DNA of 44,810 bases, from the NCBI GenBank assembly GCA_017449765.1, contig JAFTFE010000142.1, positions 1-44,810 on the forward strand, read 5' to 3'. Shown here one piece after another: positions 33,033 through 38,039 of this stretch (position 1 is the first letter of the stretch; each line of letters starts with the position of its first letter). Source of the stretch: Lachnospiraceae bacterium. GTDB lineage: Bacteria; Bacillota; Clostridia; Lachnospirales; Lachnospiraceae. Under the pieces are notes generated by a model that did not search any database, was not told the DNA's origin, and worked only from the letters and a program-made list of their open reading frames with translations. Both the position numbers and the translations under genes were made by a program.

Positions 33033-33063
33033 AAAGTACATGGTTTTTATCATGTACTTTTTT
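33033..33063 (+). terminator. Intrinsic terminator after recN
   Basis: AAAGTACATG (33033-33042) and CATGTACTTT (33051-33060) form a 10-bp stem with an 8-base loop, followed by TTT. It ends the housekeeping operon before spoIVB, implying that spoIVB has its own promoter. No sporulation-type promoter was recognised in the 20 bp left before spoIVB, so read-through or a promoter inside recN is possible. Confidence 0.85.
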
Positions 33064-33081
33064 AATTGTGAGGTTAGGGCT

Positions 33082-34188
33082 ATGAGAGAACGTGAAAAAA
33101 GACTATATAGATTGTTTTTATTTACATTACTTGTTTCGGTTGTTTATTTTCTGTGCATTATTACCGGAAATGATTTATTGAATACAAATATTGTAAATGA
33201 TGAGATTTATCTGCCTGAAACACAGGCTGTCCAAAGTGACAATGTGCTTAACAGTTCAAAAAAGGTTATGCCGTCAGGGGTGCCAATCGGAATTTATGTT
33301 AAGACAGAAGGTGTAATGGTGATTGATACGGGTGTCATAAGCGGATATGATGGTAAAGTATACTCGCCCTGCAAGGATATTTTAAAACAGGGAGATTATA
33401 TTGTAAGTATAGATGGTACGGCAATCAATGATAAGAAAAGTCTGGTTGAAGCCATAGACAGATGTAATGGAGATATAGTTGACATAGGTGTGTTAAGAAA
33501 CACAGAGGAATATAATTTCAGTATTACGCCGATTAAAAACTCTGAAGGCAAATATAAGCTTGGAATCTGGGTAAAGGATGATATATCAGGTATAGGAACG
33601 CTGACGTATGTCGATGAAGACAGTTTTGCTGCGCTTGGACACAGCATAAATGATAATGATACCGGGATAATATTCAGAATTTCCGACGGAGCAATATATA
33701 ATGCCAACCTGGTAAATATTGTTAAGCCTATTGAAAAGAATCCGGGAAGACTTGAAGGAATTATAGATTATTCGTCGGTTAATATCATAGGCAGAGTAAA
33801 AGCAAATACCTTATATGGAATATCCGGTACATTAAGCAATAATGTAAGCTATACGGATTATGGACTGGAGCCTATGTCCATTGCATCGAAGGAGGAAGTG
33901 AAAGTTGGTCCTGCGTATATTCTGTCTGCAATATCGGGTGAACCTAAGTACTATGAGATAGAAATTACCAATATTAATTATGATGAATCGGCAGGGAGTA
34001 AAAGTCTGGAAATAAAAATTACAGATGACATGCTTCTTTCGATGACTGAAGGAATTGTACAGGGAATGAGTGGCACACCCATTATACAGGATAATCGACT
34101 TGTAGGTGCAATAACCCACGTTTTTGTCAATGATTCGACGAAAGGCTACGGCATTTTTATCGAATATATGCTTGCAGATAATGACTGA
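33082..34188 (+). CDS. spoIVB: SpoIVB signalling serine peptidase (S55)
   Basis: A 368-residue protein starting at ATG 33082, with GTGAGGTTAGGG upstream; an earlier in-frame ATG lies in the terminator and is unlikely. An N-terminal membrane segment (about 12-30) is followed by a PDZ domain (about 85-150, ILKQGDYIVSIDGTAI) and the S55 peptidase domain. The catalytic pair is His187 in ALGHSI and Ser330 in GMSGTPI, at the same spacing as His236/Ser378 of the Bacillus protein. SpoIVB is secreted from the forespore and cuts SpoIVFA to trigger sigma-K processing. No spoIVF genes are in the window. Confidence 0.95.
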   Translation: MREREKRLYRLFLFTLLVSVVYFLCIITGNDLLNTNIVNDEIYLPETQAVQSDNVLNSSKKVMPSGVPIGIYVKTEGVMVIDTGVISGYDGKVYSPCKDILKQGDYIVSIDGTAINDKKSLVEAIDRCNGDIVDIGVLRNTEEYNFSITPIKNSEGKYKLGIWVKDDISGIGTLTYVDEDSFAALGHSINDNDTGIIFRISDGAIYNANLVNIVKPIEKNPGRLEGIIDYSSVNIIGRVKANTLYGISGTLSNNVSYTDYGLEPMSIASKEEVKVGPAYILSAISGEPKYYEIEITNINYDESAGSKSLEIKITDDMLLSMTEGIVQGMSGTPIIQDNRLVGAITHVFVNDSTKGYGIFIEYMLADND

Positions 34189-34205: not shown

Positions 34206-34233
34206 ACTGTCATAACTTGCGTCGGATTGGATA

Positions 34234-34262
34234 TTGCTATCATAAAAACGAGAAATTATAAT
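34234..34262 (+). promoter_or_regulatory. Candidate sigma-A promoter of the first spo0A paralogue
   Basis: TTGCTA (34234-34239), a 17-base spacer and a perfect TATAAT (34257-34262) lie 35 bp before the start codon. No Spo0A box matching TGTCGAA is visible close to it, unlike the second paralogue. Confidence 0.65.
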
Positions 34263-34297: not shown

Positions 34298-35092
34298 ATG
34301 AGAACAAGAGTAATGATTGTCAAGCATGATACAAAAAGTGCACTTGACATAAAGAAGAATCTGGAAGATCAGAATGATATAGAAATTGTCGGAACATGTT
34401 ATGACGGCAAAAATGCTGTATCATCAATCAAAAATAATAATCCTGACGTTGTAATTATGGATTTGCTCCTGCCCAATATAGATGGCATAGCGGTAATGGA
34501 TGAGATAAATAATTATAAGGATAAGAATTATAAGTTTATAGTCAGGGCTAACGCAAGTCAGATAAAATTTATAGAGGCTTCTTACAAAGGAAAATTTGAT
34601 AATATCTTAGTTAATATAGTAGATGAAGGAATAAAGGATTTTGATCTGGCTAAAGAGATTATTAATTTATCCAAATGTAAGCTCAGGGATATAGTGGTTA
34701 TATCTGATAATGTAGACTCTGAAGAGGCAAATAATAAATTAGAGGTTATGGTTACAAGAACTATCCACGAGATAGGAGTACCGGCACATATAAAAGGATA
34801 TCAATATCTGAGAACTTCAATAATAATGGCTGTTAATGATATGGATATACTTAACTCCATAACCAAACAGTTATATCCATCCATAGCCAAGATGTATGAG
34901 ACAACTCCTTCGAGAGTGGAAAGGGCAATAAGACATGCCATAGAGGTTGCATGGAGCAGAGGCAAGACAGATACAATTAATGAATTATTTGGATACACCT
35001 TAAGTTCAGGAAGAATTAAGCCTACGAATTCGGAATTTATCGCCTTGATTGCGGACAAGATAAGGCTTGATACTAAAGCTAAGAGTGCATAA
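34298..35092 (+). CDS. Spo0A paralogue 1 with degenerate receiver
   Basis: A 264-residue Spo0A-type regulator with an N-terminal receiver (1 to about 125) and a C-terminal Spo0A DNA-binding domain (about 155-260). The latter is well preserved ([45 protein letters not shown]). The receiver is not: the acidic pair is Lys9-His10, the switch Thr is Arg in FIVRANAS, and the conserved Lys before Pro is Val in NILVNIVD. Only the phosphoacceptor-position Asp55 ([10 protein letters not shown]) remains. It may therefore act without phosphorylation, or antagonise or dimerise with the second paralogue. The position right after spoIVB is that of the normal spo0A gene. Confidence 0.9.
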
Positions 35093-35107
35093 AGCGCTTG
35101 TTCGATG

Positions 35108-35115
35108 TTGTCGAA
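35108..35115 (+). promoter_or_regulatory. Spo0A box upstream of the second spo0A paralogue
   Basis: TTGTCGAA matches the core 0A box (TGTCGAA). With the TTCGA at 35101-35105 it forms an inverted TTCGA-N5-TCGAA. It lies 21 bp upstream of the -35 element of the second paralogue, suggesting auto- or cross-regulation by the Spo0A proteins. Confidence 0.65.
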
Positions 35116-35136
35116 GTTTAATGCGAAAACATATTA

Positions 35137-35165
35137 TTGACATTATTTTATAAAAAATATATATT
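35137..35165 (+). promoter_or_regulatory. Consensus sigma-A promoter of the second spo0A paralogue
   Basis: A perfect TTGACA (35137-35142), exactly 17 bases, then TATATT (35160-35165). The initial transcribed region holds an 8-bp GC-rich palindrome TCGCGCGA (35178-35185), out of character for this AT-rich stretch and a possible operator. Confidence 0.8.
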
Positions 35166-35226
35166 ATCTTTCGTTAGTCGCGCGATTGATGTAGAGATAA
35201 GTTAATGAGGAAGGAGACAAAAACCT

Positions 35227-36012
35227 ATGATGGAGCAACCGATTAAAGTTGTAATTGCAGATATTGGATATGAAATTCTTTCCAAACAATTAGAACTTCT
35301 TGATTATAATGTGGAAATAAAATCTACGGATGATGGCAGCAAAGTATATGAAATGTTATGCCGGGACAAGCCGGATGTATTAATCATTGATGTGTTCATA
35401 TCCAATTTTGATGGATTGGAGGTCGTGGAACAGATTAGGGGAAATGAAAAACTTAATGATATGAAAATTATATTCTTATCGACTGTAGGTTCACCAAGGA
35501 TAATAAGTATGGCTTTTAATCTGGGGGCTGATTATTACATAATGAAACCATGTAATCCGGAGATAATTATGAAAAGGATTGCACAAATAACAGATATGGA
35601 GAAAAGTGTTATGAATGAAGATATTTTGGATGAAGAAGATGGGTATTATACGGAAAATACCGTAGAAAATGATGTGACAGAGATTATCAGAGAACTTGGA
35701 ATTCCTGCACATATAAAGGGCTATCAATACATAAGAGAGGGTATAATAATGGCGATAAACGATATGAATATGCTTAATTATATAACCAAGCTTTTATATC
35801 CGACAATTGCCAAGAAATACAAAACTACTTCAAGCAGTGTGGAAAGGGCAATAAGACATGCCATAGAGGTTGCTTGGAGCAGAGGTAAGATTGAGGTAAT
35901 AGAGGATATGTTCGGATATACCGTTAGTGCAGGCAAGGGTAAACCGACTAATTCAGAATTTATCGCACTTATTGCTGATAAATTAAGAATTGAATATAAA
36001 ATGAGAGCATAA
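35227..36012 (+). CDS. spo0A: Sporulation master regulator Spo0A (paralogue 2, near-intact receiver)
   Basis: A 261-residue response regulator. The receiver keeps Asp12 of the acidic pair (its partner is Ile13), the phosphoacceptor-position Asp55 ([10 protein letters not shown]), Ser85 in place of the switch Thr (IIFLSTVG) and Lys107 (YIMKPCNP). The Pro usually following the phospho-Asp by three is Ser. The C-terminal Spo0A domain (about 155-258) is very similar to paralogue 1, including the recognition helix [17 protein letters not shown]. Being closer to the canonical protein and having its own promoter and 0A box, it is the better candidate for the phosphorelay-controlled Spo0A. The start uses AAGGAG about 10 bp upstream; ATG 35230 is an alternative. 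Confidence 0.92.
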
Positions 36013-36397: not shown

Positions 36398-36431
36398 ATA
36401 TTCTGTATGATTTTGTTTAATGGAGGCATAT

Positions 36432-38039
36432 ATGGACGAAAACTACCTGGATGGTCTGCTTAATTCAGTATCATCAGATGGTAAAAAGAATAATGTCGAA
36501 GAATCAGTCGAGAAGGATTCCGGAATAAATATAGATATCTCAGATCTTGATGAGCTTTCTCTTGATGAGTTTGATGATTTGGGTGATTTGGACGGTCTTG
36601 ATTTGGGGGATCTGGATTTTGATGATATAGACTTTGATGATATAGATATTACCAGCCTTGACAGCAAGGCAGTTAAAGCTTCAAAAGAACCTGAAGAAGA
36701 GGATTTTTCATTAGAAGATTTATTGGATGAATCTGAAACTCTTTCTGAACCTGAGCCTGAGCCGGTTGTACCTGTGGCTGAGCCTGAGGAACCGCAGGAG
36801 GTTGAGGATTTTTCCCTTGATGAATTAATGTCAGAGGGAGACGGTGCTCCTGCTGAGGAGGAGATGGCTGCATTAAATGAGAATAATGATAATGCTTCAG
36901 ATGATACTTCGATAGAAGATTTGCTTAGTGCTTTGGAGGAACCTGCCGCTAAAACCGAACAGAGTTCATCTGTGCCGTCAGATGACGGGGATTCGTCTGT
37001 GGATGATATGGATCTTGATGATTTATTTTCTGCGCTTGGTATAGAGGATGAAGATAGCGGTGAGGATGCAGATATGGCGGGTATTGCCGCAAATGCATCC
37101 ATAGATTCATTAGATACAGAACTTGATGATCCGGCAGATTTTTCCGGACTTGAAGATATAGAGGATATTTCGGAAGTTAAGCCTGATAAGTCTAAGAAGG
37201 CTAAGAAGACTAAGAATAAAAAAGAAAAGGGCGATAAATCAGGCGGTGAGAAGGAAAAGAAGTCACTGTCCCAGATTTTATTTGGTGAGCCTGAAGAGGA
37301 TGAACTCGAAGAAGAGGAGTTAAGAAAGGCCAAGAAGGCAGAGAAGAAAGAAGAAAAAGCCAAGAAAAAGGAAGAGAATAAGGAAAAGAAGGCTGAAAAG
37401 CTTGAATTAAAGAATACCAAGAATACTGAGAAAAAGAATCAAAAGGCTGATAAGAAAAAGCAAAAGGCTGATGCAGCGGCTGCAGAGGCGGCAGCAGAAG
37501 CAGCTGAGGATGAGGCTGCAGGTAACAAACCTGTATCAAAACCTGTAACTGCCATTATTTTTGCTGTATTTGCTATAGGTGCCGTGCTTGTGGTATTGGG
37601 TACTAACAGCTTCAATTACAGGCAGGTTATCAGGAAGGCCGCAGATTATTTTGAAAGACAAAGATACAGACTTGCATATGACCAGGTTGCAGGTGTAGAT
37701 GTTAAAGAGAAGGATCAGGAGCTTAAGGACAGGATTTATACTGTTATGTATGTTGAACGACTCTATGAGTCCTATGAAAATAATATGAAACTTAATCGAC
37801 CTGACAAGGCACTGGATTCATTAATCAGAGGTCTTGAGAAGTATGATGAACATTATGATGAGGCGGTAGAACTTGAGATTGTAGATGATATCAATCTGTG
37901 TAAGTCAAATATTGTTGAGGCTTTGAGAGGGACTTTTGGTCTTAGTGAAGATGATGCGTATATGATTATGTCATATGAGGGGCAGGATTATATTGATGCT
38001 CTTAATGCATATAGCGGTATAATTAATTCAGAGGAGTAG
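36432..38039 (+). CDS. Acidic one-TM protein of unknown function
   Basis: A 535-residue protein; ATG 36432 is used because GGAGG sits just before it (an ATG at 36420 lies upstream of that site). It has four parts: an extremely acidic region with DLD/DDID repeats (1 to about 245); a Lys/Glu-rich coiled or disordered segment (about 245-355); one membrane helix (about 373-393, VTAIIFAVFAIGAVLVVLG); and an external or cytoplasmic helical domain (about 400-535) resembling TPR-like repeats (FERQRYRLAYDQVAG, RPDKALDSLIRGLEKYDEHYDE). I do not recognise the family. The acidic N-terminus could bind basic partners or divalent cations. hisH starts 11 bp later, so the two are probably co-transcribed, although no link is evident. 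Confidence 0.85.
   Translation: MDENYLDGLLNSVSSDGKKNNVEESVEKDSGINIDISDLDELSLDEFDDLGDLDGLDLGDLDFDDIDFDDIDITSLDSKAVKASKEPEEEDFSLEDLLDESETLSEPEPEPVVPVAEPEEPQEVEDFSLDELMSEGDGAPAEEEMAALNENNDNASDDTSIEDLLSALEEPAAKTEQSSSVPSDDGDSSVDDMDLDDLFSALGIEDEDSGEDADMAGIAANASIDSLDTELDDPADFSGLEDIEDISEVKPDKSKKAKKTKNKKEKGDKSGGEKEKKSLSQILFGEPEEDELEEEELRKAKKAEKKEEKAKKKEENKEKKAEKLELKNTKNTEKKNQKADKKKQKADAAAAEAAAEAAEDEAAGNKPVSKPVTAIIFAVFAIGAVLVVLGTNSFNYRQVIRKAADYFERQRYRLAYDQVAGVDVKEKDQELKDRIYTVMYVERLYESYENNMKLNRPDKALDSLIRGLEKYDEHYDEAVELEIVDDINLCKSNIVEALRGTFGLSEDDAYMIMSYEGQDYIDALNAYSGIINSEE

Follow-up and report, generated by a model that had tools for sequence, protein, structure and literature searches.

Tandem Spo0A paralogues in Lachnospiraceae with divergent receivers and a changed recognition-helix residue

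The spo0A locus and its control regions

The stretch of DNA analysed here (44,810 nucleotides, referred to below as the window), from a member of the Lachnospiraceae, a family of gut and rumen bacteria, carries two complete spo0A genes in tandem behind spoIVB, in the order spoIVB-spo0A-spo0A. A preliminary description, made from the letters of the window, had pointed to tandem spo0A paralogues at 34298..36012, and both genes are indeed full-length matches to the Spo0A equivalog TIGR02875 (NCBI, cut-off 200), with 253.5 bits for copy 1 and 267.1 bits for copy 2. A Pfam search placed Response_reg and Spo0A_C domains in both, and the best PDB matches of the DNA-binding domain were 1lq1 and 1fc3. 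The genes are as follows.

33040..34188, + strand: spoIVB (TIGR02860, 317.3 bits against a cut-off of 305.25)
34298..35092, + strand: spo0A copy 1 (spo0A1), 264 aa, a pseudo-receiver with a canonical Spo0A DNA-binding domain
35227..36012, + strand: spo0A copy 2 (spo0A2), 261 aa, a receiver with Asp12, Asp55, Ser85 and Lys107 and with Ile13 for the second acid

We take spoIVB to be the usual upstream neighbour of clostridial spo0A, and the gene that precedes it presumably is recN-like. The source genome (191 contigs; 100% complete, 5.3% contamination) has these two Spo0A_C proteins and no more at E 0.001. We note that in five genomes of the genus (G003, G004, G019, G020 and G022) spoIVB and the spo0A pair lie on different contigs, and that the usual neighbourhood may be broken there. 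Downstream of the pair in the window, positions 36420-38039 encode a 539-aa protein that has a very acidic N-terminal half and no Pfam match.

The control elements recognised around the two genes are:

34208..34221, + strand: operator-like motif TGTCNNAACTTGCG (here TGTCATAACTTGCG) upstream of spo0A1, at the same place in 26 genus genomes
34234..34262, + strand: probable sigma-A promoter of spo0A1, TTGCTA-17-TATAAT (scan, 10 of 12 matches)
35109..35115, + strand: perfect 0A box TGTCGAA between the genes (exact match)
35121-35127, + strand: ATGCGAA, after the intergenic 0A box (from the sequence)
35137..35165, + strand: probable sigma-A promoter of spo0A2, TTGACA-17-TATATT (scan, 11 of 12 matches)

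The 26 genomes with TGTCNNAACTTGCG are those that carry the pair by coordinates, except G031; as background, five other matches occurred in three genomes, and a backward control gave four in all. ACTTGCG stands upstream of copy 1 at all 25 genus loci read, at 5 of 14 other tandem loci and in none of 55 upstream regions of other Spo0A genes of the family, the last two counts differing with a p of 0.0002 that kin genomes make too favourable. The p values are too favourable for the same reason where TTGCG alone is compared (8/14 against 11/55, p 0.015) and where the exact 0A box is found to be rarer at the other tandem loci (2/14 against 27/55, p 0.03). We considered a clean operator switch at spo0A1 and set it aside; it is opposed by the exact 0A box that still lies farther up in 8 of the 25 genus spo0A1 upstream regions (shuffled mean 0.4).

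Between the two genes, an exact 0A box occurs in 15 of 26 genus intergenic regions, many of them from close species, as compared to a mean of 0.29 in simple shuffles, and the composite TGTCGAA-TGCG occurs in seven. The promoter scan returned ten sites over the whole region where 13.5 were expected, that is, fewer than by chance, so the case for the two promoters is one of conservation: TATAAT is present in all 25 genus spo0A1 upstream regions read, and TTGAC(A/T)-17-TAT(A/T/C)(A/T)T in 19 of the 26 intergenic regions. Of 30 regions upstream of spoIIE, three hold an exact 0A box, where simple shuffles gave 0.7 on average, and some one-mismatch matches overlap a possible -35 element.

Receivers and recognition helices

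The domains and residues on which the comparison of the two proteins turns are given below; rows are aligned proteins.

34322..34327, + strand: Lys9-His10 of copy 1, replacing the acidic pair (all 25 genus rows with letters have Lys/Arg followed by His)
34460..34462, + strand: Asp55 of copy 1, the kept phosphorylation-site aspartate (26 of 26 genus copy-1 rows)
34751..35062, + strand: Spo0A_C domain of copy 1 (PF08769)
34913-34915, + strand: Arg206 of copy 1, B. subtilis Arg211 (Arg in 40 of 40 copy-1 rows)
35674..35985, + strand: Spo0A_C domain of copy 2 (PF08769)
35836-35838, + strand: Ser204 of copy 2, B. subtilis position 211 (Ser in 42 of 42 copy-2 rows)

The receivers of 26 copy-1 and 28 copy-2 genus proteins were aligned with B. 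subtilis Spo0A, a reference sequence written from recall. Copy 1 has Lys (23) or Arg (2) at position 10 and His at position 11 in all 25 rows with letters; Asp56 (B. subtilis numbering) is in every one of the 26 rows, and Thr/Ser86 and Lys108 are in none. The Lys-His pair and the kept Asp55 of copy 1 had been read correctly in the preliminary description. It had also reported that the switch Thr and the conserved Lys were lost, which stands, and had named Arg and Val in their place, which does not; aligned to B. subtilis Spo0A, the residues in the window are Ala84 and Asn106, the Arg and Val lying just before them. Copy 2 has all four residues formerly ascribed to it (Asp12, Asp55, Ser85 and Lys107), and over the genus Asp10 is in 27/28 rows, Asp56 in 28/28, Thr/Ser86 in 27/28 and Lys108 in 28/28, with Asp11 in none. 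That description overlooked two things about copy 2, the Ser at position 211 and the missing second acid: the window has Ile13 there, an acid is kept at this position in 0 of 39 copy-2 rows with a letter, and copy 2 is thus formally a pseudo-receiver too.

A pseudo-receiver is defined as lacking one or more of DD, D, T and K (PMC12632262, in part; sources so marked are cited from a portion of their text). Both copies come under this definition, copy 1 far more so with four of the five residues lost. Judged by sequence, neither is a standard phosphorylatable receiver with acidic pair, Asp, Thr/Ser and Lys, copy 1 having the Asp only and copy 2 being short of one acid. Within the genus, the receiver of copy 1 should not accept a phosphoryl group in the normal way, and its Asp probably has a structural role. 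Copy 2 may be phosphorylated poorly as well, since the acid it has lost is, as we take it by comparison with CheY, a direct metal ligand.

The pattern of residues in the two copies recurs throughout the genus and also outside it, which speaks against chance. The earlier view of copy 1 as a pseudo-receiver holds. In the wider set, all 27 copy-1 rows with Lys/Arg-His keep the Asp with most other catalytic residues gone, and six of 40 copy-1 rows, all from other genera, have a complete canonical receiver. One might suppose that Asp55 of copy 1 still receives a phosphoryl group by some unusual route, possibly one independent of metal, in keeping with an Asp found in every genus row and in 38 of the 40 copy-1 rows; however, every genus row with letters has lost both acids as well as Thr/Ser and Lys, and we think such a route very improbable. 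The receivers of the two window copies are 19% identical (23/119 positions). With helix borders taken from recall, mean pairwise identity in alpha4 and beta5 is 0.86 and 0.95 for copy 2 as compared to 0.52 and 0.48 for copy 1, and these are the most conserved receiver parts of copy 2.

The DNA-binding domains, previously described as nearly identical, are in fact 68% identical (79/117 positions), and in the recognition helix a single residue separates them, Arg206 in copy 1 and Ser204 in copy 2. Copy 1 thus has the full set Arg211, Glu213 and Arg214, and copy 2 keeps the latter two beside its Ser. Among the 137 proteins compared, every one of the 42 copy-2 rows (39 labelled by gene order, and three, L009, L026 and L087, first labelled single and placed by the tree) has Ser at position 211. 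Every one of the 40 copy-1 rows has Arg, and so do 54 of 55 other Spo0A rows, the sole exception (L145) coming from a genome with two Spo0As (G159). At the loci read, a copy without Arg211 always shares its genome with an Arg211 copy, except in G032, whose contig begins just before copy 2. In the 14 genomes with two unlinked copies, eight combine an Arg211 copy with a non-Arg copy, four of these outside the copy-2 group, and six have Arg211 in both.

Unlinked second Spo0As in which Ser, Asn or Cys takes the place of Arg211 are L210 (G159), L215 (G307), L216 (G418), L219 (G125) and L213 (G287), and the first four of these genomes have lost Arg211 outside the copy-2 group. With four of the five listed second copies so placed, Arg211 has apparently been lost repeatedly in duplicate Spo0As. 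An order-wide search of 294 genomes gave a best score outside the family of 329.7 bits, which lies in the range where copy 2 and ordinary Spo0A overlap, so that scores cannot decide on copy-2-like proteins beyond the family; the 24 newly fetched loci of this search, eight of them from other families, have Arg211 throughout.

Arg211 makes one of the contacts of Spo0A to bases G2, C4 and G5 of the 0A box. Contact of B. subtilis Spo0A with these three bases of TGTCGAA, and roughly tenfold weaker binding by C. difficile Spo0A when they are changed, have been described (PMC3485338, in part). A Paenibacillus polymyxa strain with Spo0A R211H forms no endospores, but a DegU change is also present (PMC9195935, in part), and this R211H protein is reported to retain some regulatory activity alone (PMC10782996, in part).

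These observations bear on the proposal of the preliminary description that copy 1 is a non-phosphorylatable competitor, occupying the same 0A boxes and so restraining copy 2. The canonical recognition helix of copy 1, with the phosphorylation chemistry gone, would suit this role. Competition for the same boxes presumes, however, that both copies read DNA alike, and with Ser in copy 2 against Arg211 in 40/40 copy-1 and 54/55 other rows it is copy 1 that stands nearer to canonical Spo0A; equal competition is unlikely, the six copy-1 receivers that are complete in other genera also speak against it, and we regard the proposal as improbable.

Alternatively, each copy might form homodimers and control a regulon of its own independently of the other, with copy 1 constitutively active (a pseudo-receiver locked on, perhaps by pairing of Lys9 with Asp55) and controlled by its synthesis, and copy 2 acting on its own variant sites. 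The separate probable promoters with different operator-like motifs would fit this, as would Arg against Ser at position 211, the partial function of R211H in P. polymyxa and the Asp that persists in all 27 Lys/Arg-His rows despite the loss of most other catalytic residues; the Asp in the atypical receivers of GlnR and RamR is needed for dimers to form and not for phosphorylation (PMC12632262, in part). Against it, the loss of Arg211 is accompanied by an Arg211 copy in the same genome at the loci read, G032 with its contig start excepted, and the co-loss described below suggests one pathway. We consider independent homodimers a real possibility and a minority one.

Distribution, descent and selection

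A Spo0A_C match is present in 29 of 37 genus genomes, and an adjacent spo0A pair, counted from the listed places, in 27 of them, one of which (G031) has copy 1 cut by a contig end. Of the remaining two, G032 has only copy 2, at the beginning of a contig, and G015 only a short Spo0A_C protein. Across the 397 genomes searched in the family, two or more Spo0A matches at E 1e-50 were obtained in at least 27, not counting the source genome, in tandem in 13 and unlinked in 14; six candidates were scored per genome, which makes these counts a lower bound. Many of the genomes compared are drafts, and kin species are not independent counts.

Several further Spo0A_C proteins were seen. G022 has a third one besides its tandem pair (G022:C148:27413-27724, 139.9 bits, in a 289-aa open frame), and G386 has two separate tandem pairs on different contigs (L116 and L224), all four proteins sitting on long branches. 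In G353 a lone copy-2-type Spo0A (L113:4332-5144) lies next to a response-regulator gene, with a canonical Spo0A on another contig; the gene on its other side resembles, we presume, phosphoglycerate mutase. Short Spo0A_C-only proteins occur in six of the 37 genus genomes (G005, G006, G008, G010, G013 and G015). The one in G015 (L030:1393-1824), of 143 aa, matches two PHROGs of unknown function and is divergent from the gene for a 228-aa protein that we take to resemble a phage-type repressor. The 143-aa protein resembles the truncated Spo0A of gut phages (PMC10294663, in part).

In a tree of 137 proteins, all 42 copy-2 rows form one group (SH-aLRT 99), and the free search placed the copy-1 proteins in two groups; with the 40 copy-1 rows constrained to one group, the log-likelihood was 31.6 higher (p-AU 0.856). 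In another tree, of 124 proteins, all 26 sampled copy-1 rows and one further G386 protein formed one group with support 97. Copy 1 accordingly belongs to a conserved clade, a point that the preliminary description had put forward for checking. The trees were quick searches with many long branches, in which single placements are unsure. Unlinked second copies of G176, G369, G287 and G353 and the third copy of G111 fall inside the copy-2 group. The data fit one old spo0A duplication in Lachnospiraceae that gave rise to both copies. Repeated independent tandem duplications were considered and rejected, as copy 2 is one group and copy 1 fits better when held together. The Lys-His receiver probably arose after the pair was formed, since copy-1 rows with a canonical receiver are found in other genera.

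Summed dN/dS was 0.089 and 0.078 for the receivers of copy 1 and copy 2, and 0.014 and 0.021 for their DNA-binding domains. Each set held 17 pairs, of which 17, 16, 15 and 15 (in this order) gave values used in the sums, pairs whose dS was undefined or at least 3 being omitted; dS often exceeded 1, which makes the ratios rough. Both copies, as these ratios indicate, are under purifying selection. A decaying pseudogene might have been suspected from the fast-evolving receiver and the long stem branches of copy 1. In the listed genus matches, however, no stop codon falls within a DNA-binding domain, the receiver frame of copy 1 is open in all 26 genus rows read (L027 only partly read), and copy-1 dN/dS is low (0.03-0.19 in the receiver, at most 0.03 in the DNA-binding domain). 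Conservation and dN/dS lead us to reject decay, to which we give almost no credence, and with pairs in 27 of 37 genus genomes copy 1 is not the strain-specific, decaying gene of high dN/dS that would have undone the original suggestion.

The pair occurs together with other sporulation genes. SpoIIE matches at E 2.5e-62 or better, none over that model's cut-off, occur in 32 of the 37 genus genomes, and SpoIVB matches at E 3.7e-44 or better in 31, weaker SpoIVB matches being left uncounted since 12 of 14 control genomes also yield some. In five genomes Spo0A, SpoIIE and strong SpoIVB are absent together (G014 at 99% completeness, G027 at 100%, and G024, G028 and G034 at 64-80%), so both copies go with the sporulation set. 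Three others (G001, G016 and G033; completeness 71-87%) have SpoIIE and no Spo0A match, which may reflect missing sequence.

A proposed divided regulator and its relation to known systems

We propose that an old spo0A duplication gave two regulators which are retained together and share out the job, most likely acting jointly at Spo0A promoters, probably as a heterodimer; this is the reading we favour, with about even credence. Copy 1 would make the canonical 0A-box contact through its Arg211 helix. Copy 2 would take the remaining signal input, through its one acid, Asp56, Ser/Thr, Lys and very conserved alpha4-beta5 face, and its Ser211 helix would tolerate a degenerate half-site. In addition, copy 1 could switch on copy 2, spo0A2 having a probable promoter of its own and a 0A box here. 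The sequences themselves show the duplication, the purifying selection, residue changes that complement each other, promoter-like elements that are conserved and the loss of the pair along with sporulation genes, whereas dimerisation, the flow of signal and the assignment of half-sites are inferred. Joint action, most simply as a heterodimer, is favoured over competition by the complementary defects and by the company that non-Arg211 copies keep with Arg211 copies, and the retention of both versions in relatives suggests a working pair. The former idea that copy 1 pairs with the active form thus survives as to pairing, which would fit co-retention, co-loss and complementary defects, and is unsafe in casting copy 2, with one metal-pair acid missing, as an ordinary active form.

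Several points count against this division of labour. As each copy has its own probable promoter, stoichiometry is not fixed; as some copy-1 receivers are canonical (6/40), it cannot have been a division between receivers that first caused both copies to be kept, and the receiver of copy 2 may itself be a poor phosphoryl acceptor. Eleven of 26 genus members have no exact 0A box before spo0A2 and 19 lack the composite, Arg211 stands in both copies of the six unlinked genomes noted above, and R211H Spo0A of P. polymyxa is reportedly partly functional alone (PMC10782996, in part). A bolder version, which we put forward tentatively and think rather unlikely, is that in the genus, where neither receiver fits the standard description of a phosphorylatable one, an obligate Spo0A1-Spo0A2 heterodimer sets off sporulation, one subunit on canonical 0A boxes and the Ser211 subunit on a degenerate half-site. 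If this were true, the sporulation decision would hang on subunit supply or partner binding, and not on a phosphorylated Spo0A homodimer.

In the usual description, Spo0A is a single regulator which, once phosphorylated, forms dimers and binds to 0A boxes (PMC11210211, in part). The proteins described here are like the TIGR02875 Spo0As of B. subtilis and C. difficile in domain order, length, DNA-binding domain, the 0A box near spo0A and, in the window, the spoIVB neighbourhood. They differ in being two in tandem, copy 1 without acidic pair, Thr and Lys, and copy 2 without one acid and Arg211. Among the open-access papers searched, judged by title and opening of the abstract (PMC6136694 and PMC8340488 in part), none was listed on such a pair, subscription papers lying outside this scope. 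A lineage with two Spo0As of complementary defects represents a natural experiment on the splitting of a developmental master switch, and the pattern at position 211, with loss beside an Arg211 copy, is directly testable.

The truncated Spo0A homologues of phages (PMC10294663, in part) likewise place Spo0A_C outside normal phosphorylation control, but they are without a receiver, whereas Response_reg is present in both copies here. Copy 1 is like GlnR and RamR in retaining the Asp with other catalytic residues gone, and unlike them in having a Spo0A_C effector domain and a close paralogue as partner. The control of pseudo-receivers has been called a mystery (PMC12632262, in part), and the Spo0A pair offers a case for this question in which the family of DNA targets is known and the same cell holds a close relative that is more canonical. 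That response regulators can form a heterodimer is established by BldM-WhiI of Streptomyces (PMC4125116, in part), where, as here, two atypical response regulators serve a sporulation programme, with joint promoter action that for the Spo0As is a proposal only. The Lachnospiraceae pair differs in being tandem paralogues and in being known here from sequence. The effector family of BldM and WhiI is also another than Spo0A_C. Nonetheless, we regard BldM-WhiI as the nearest precedent, by analogy, for a pair of Spo0As that may share one decision.
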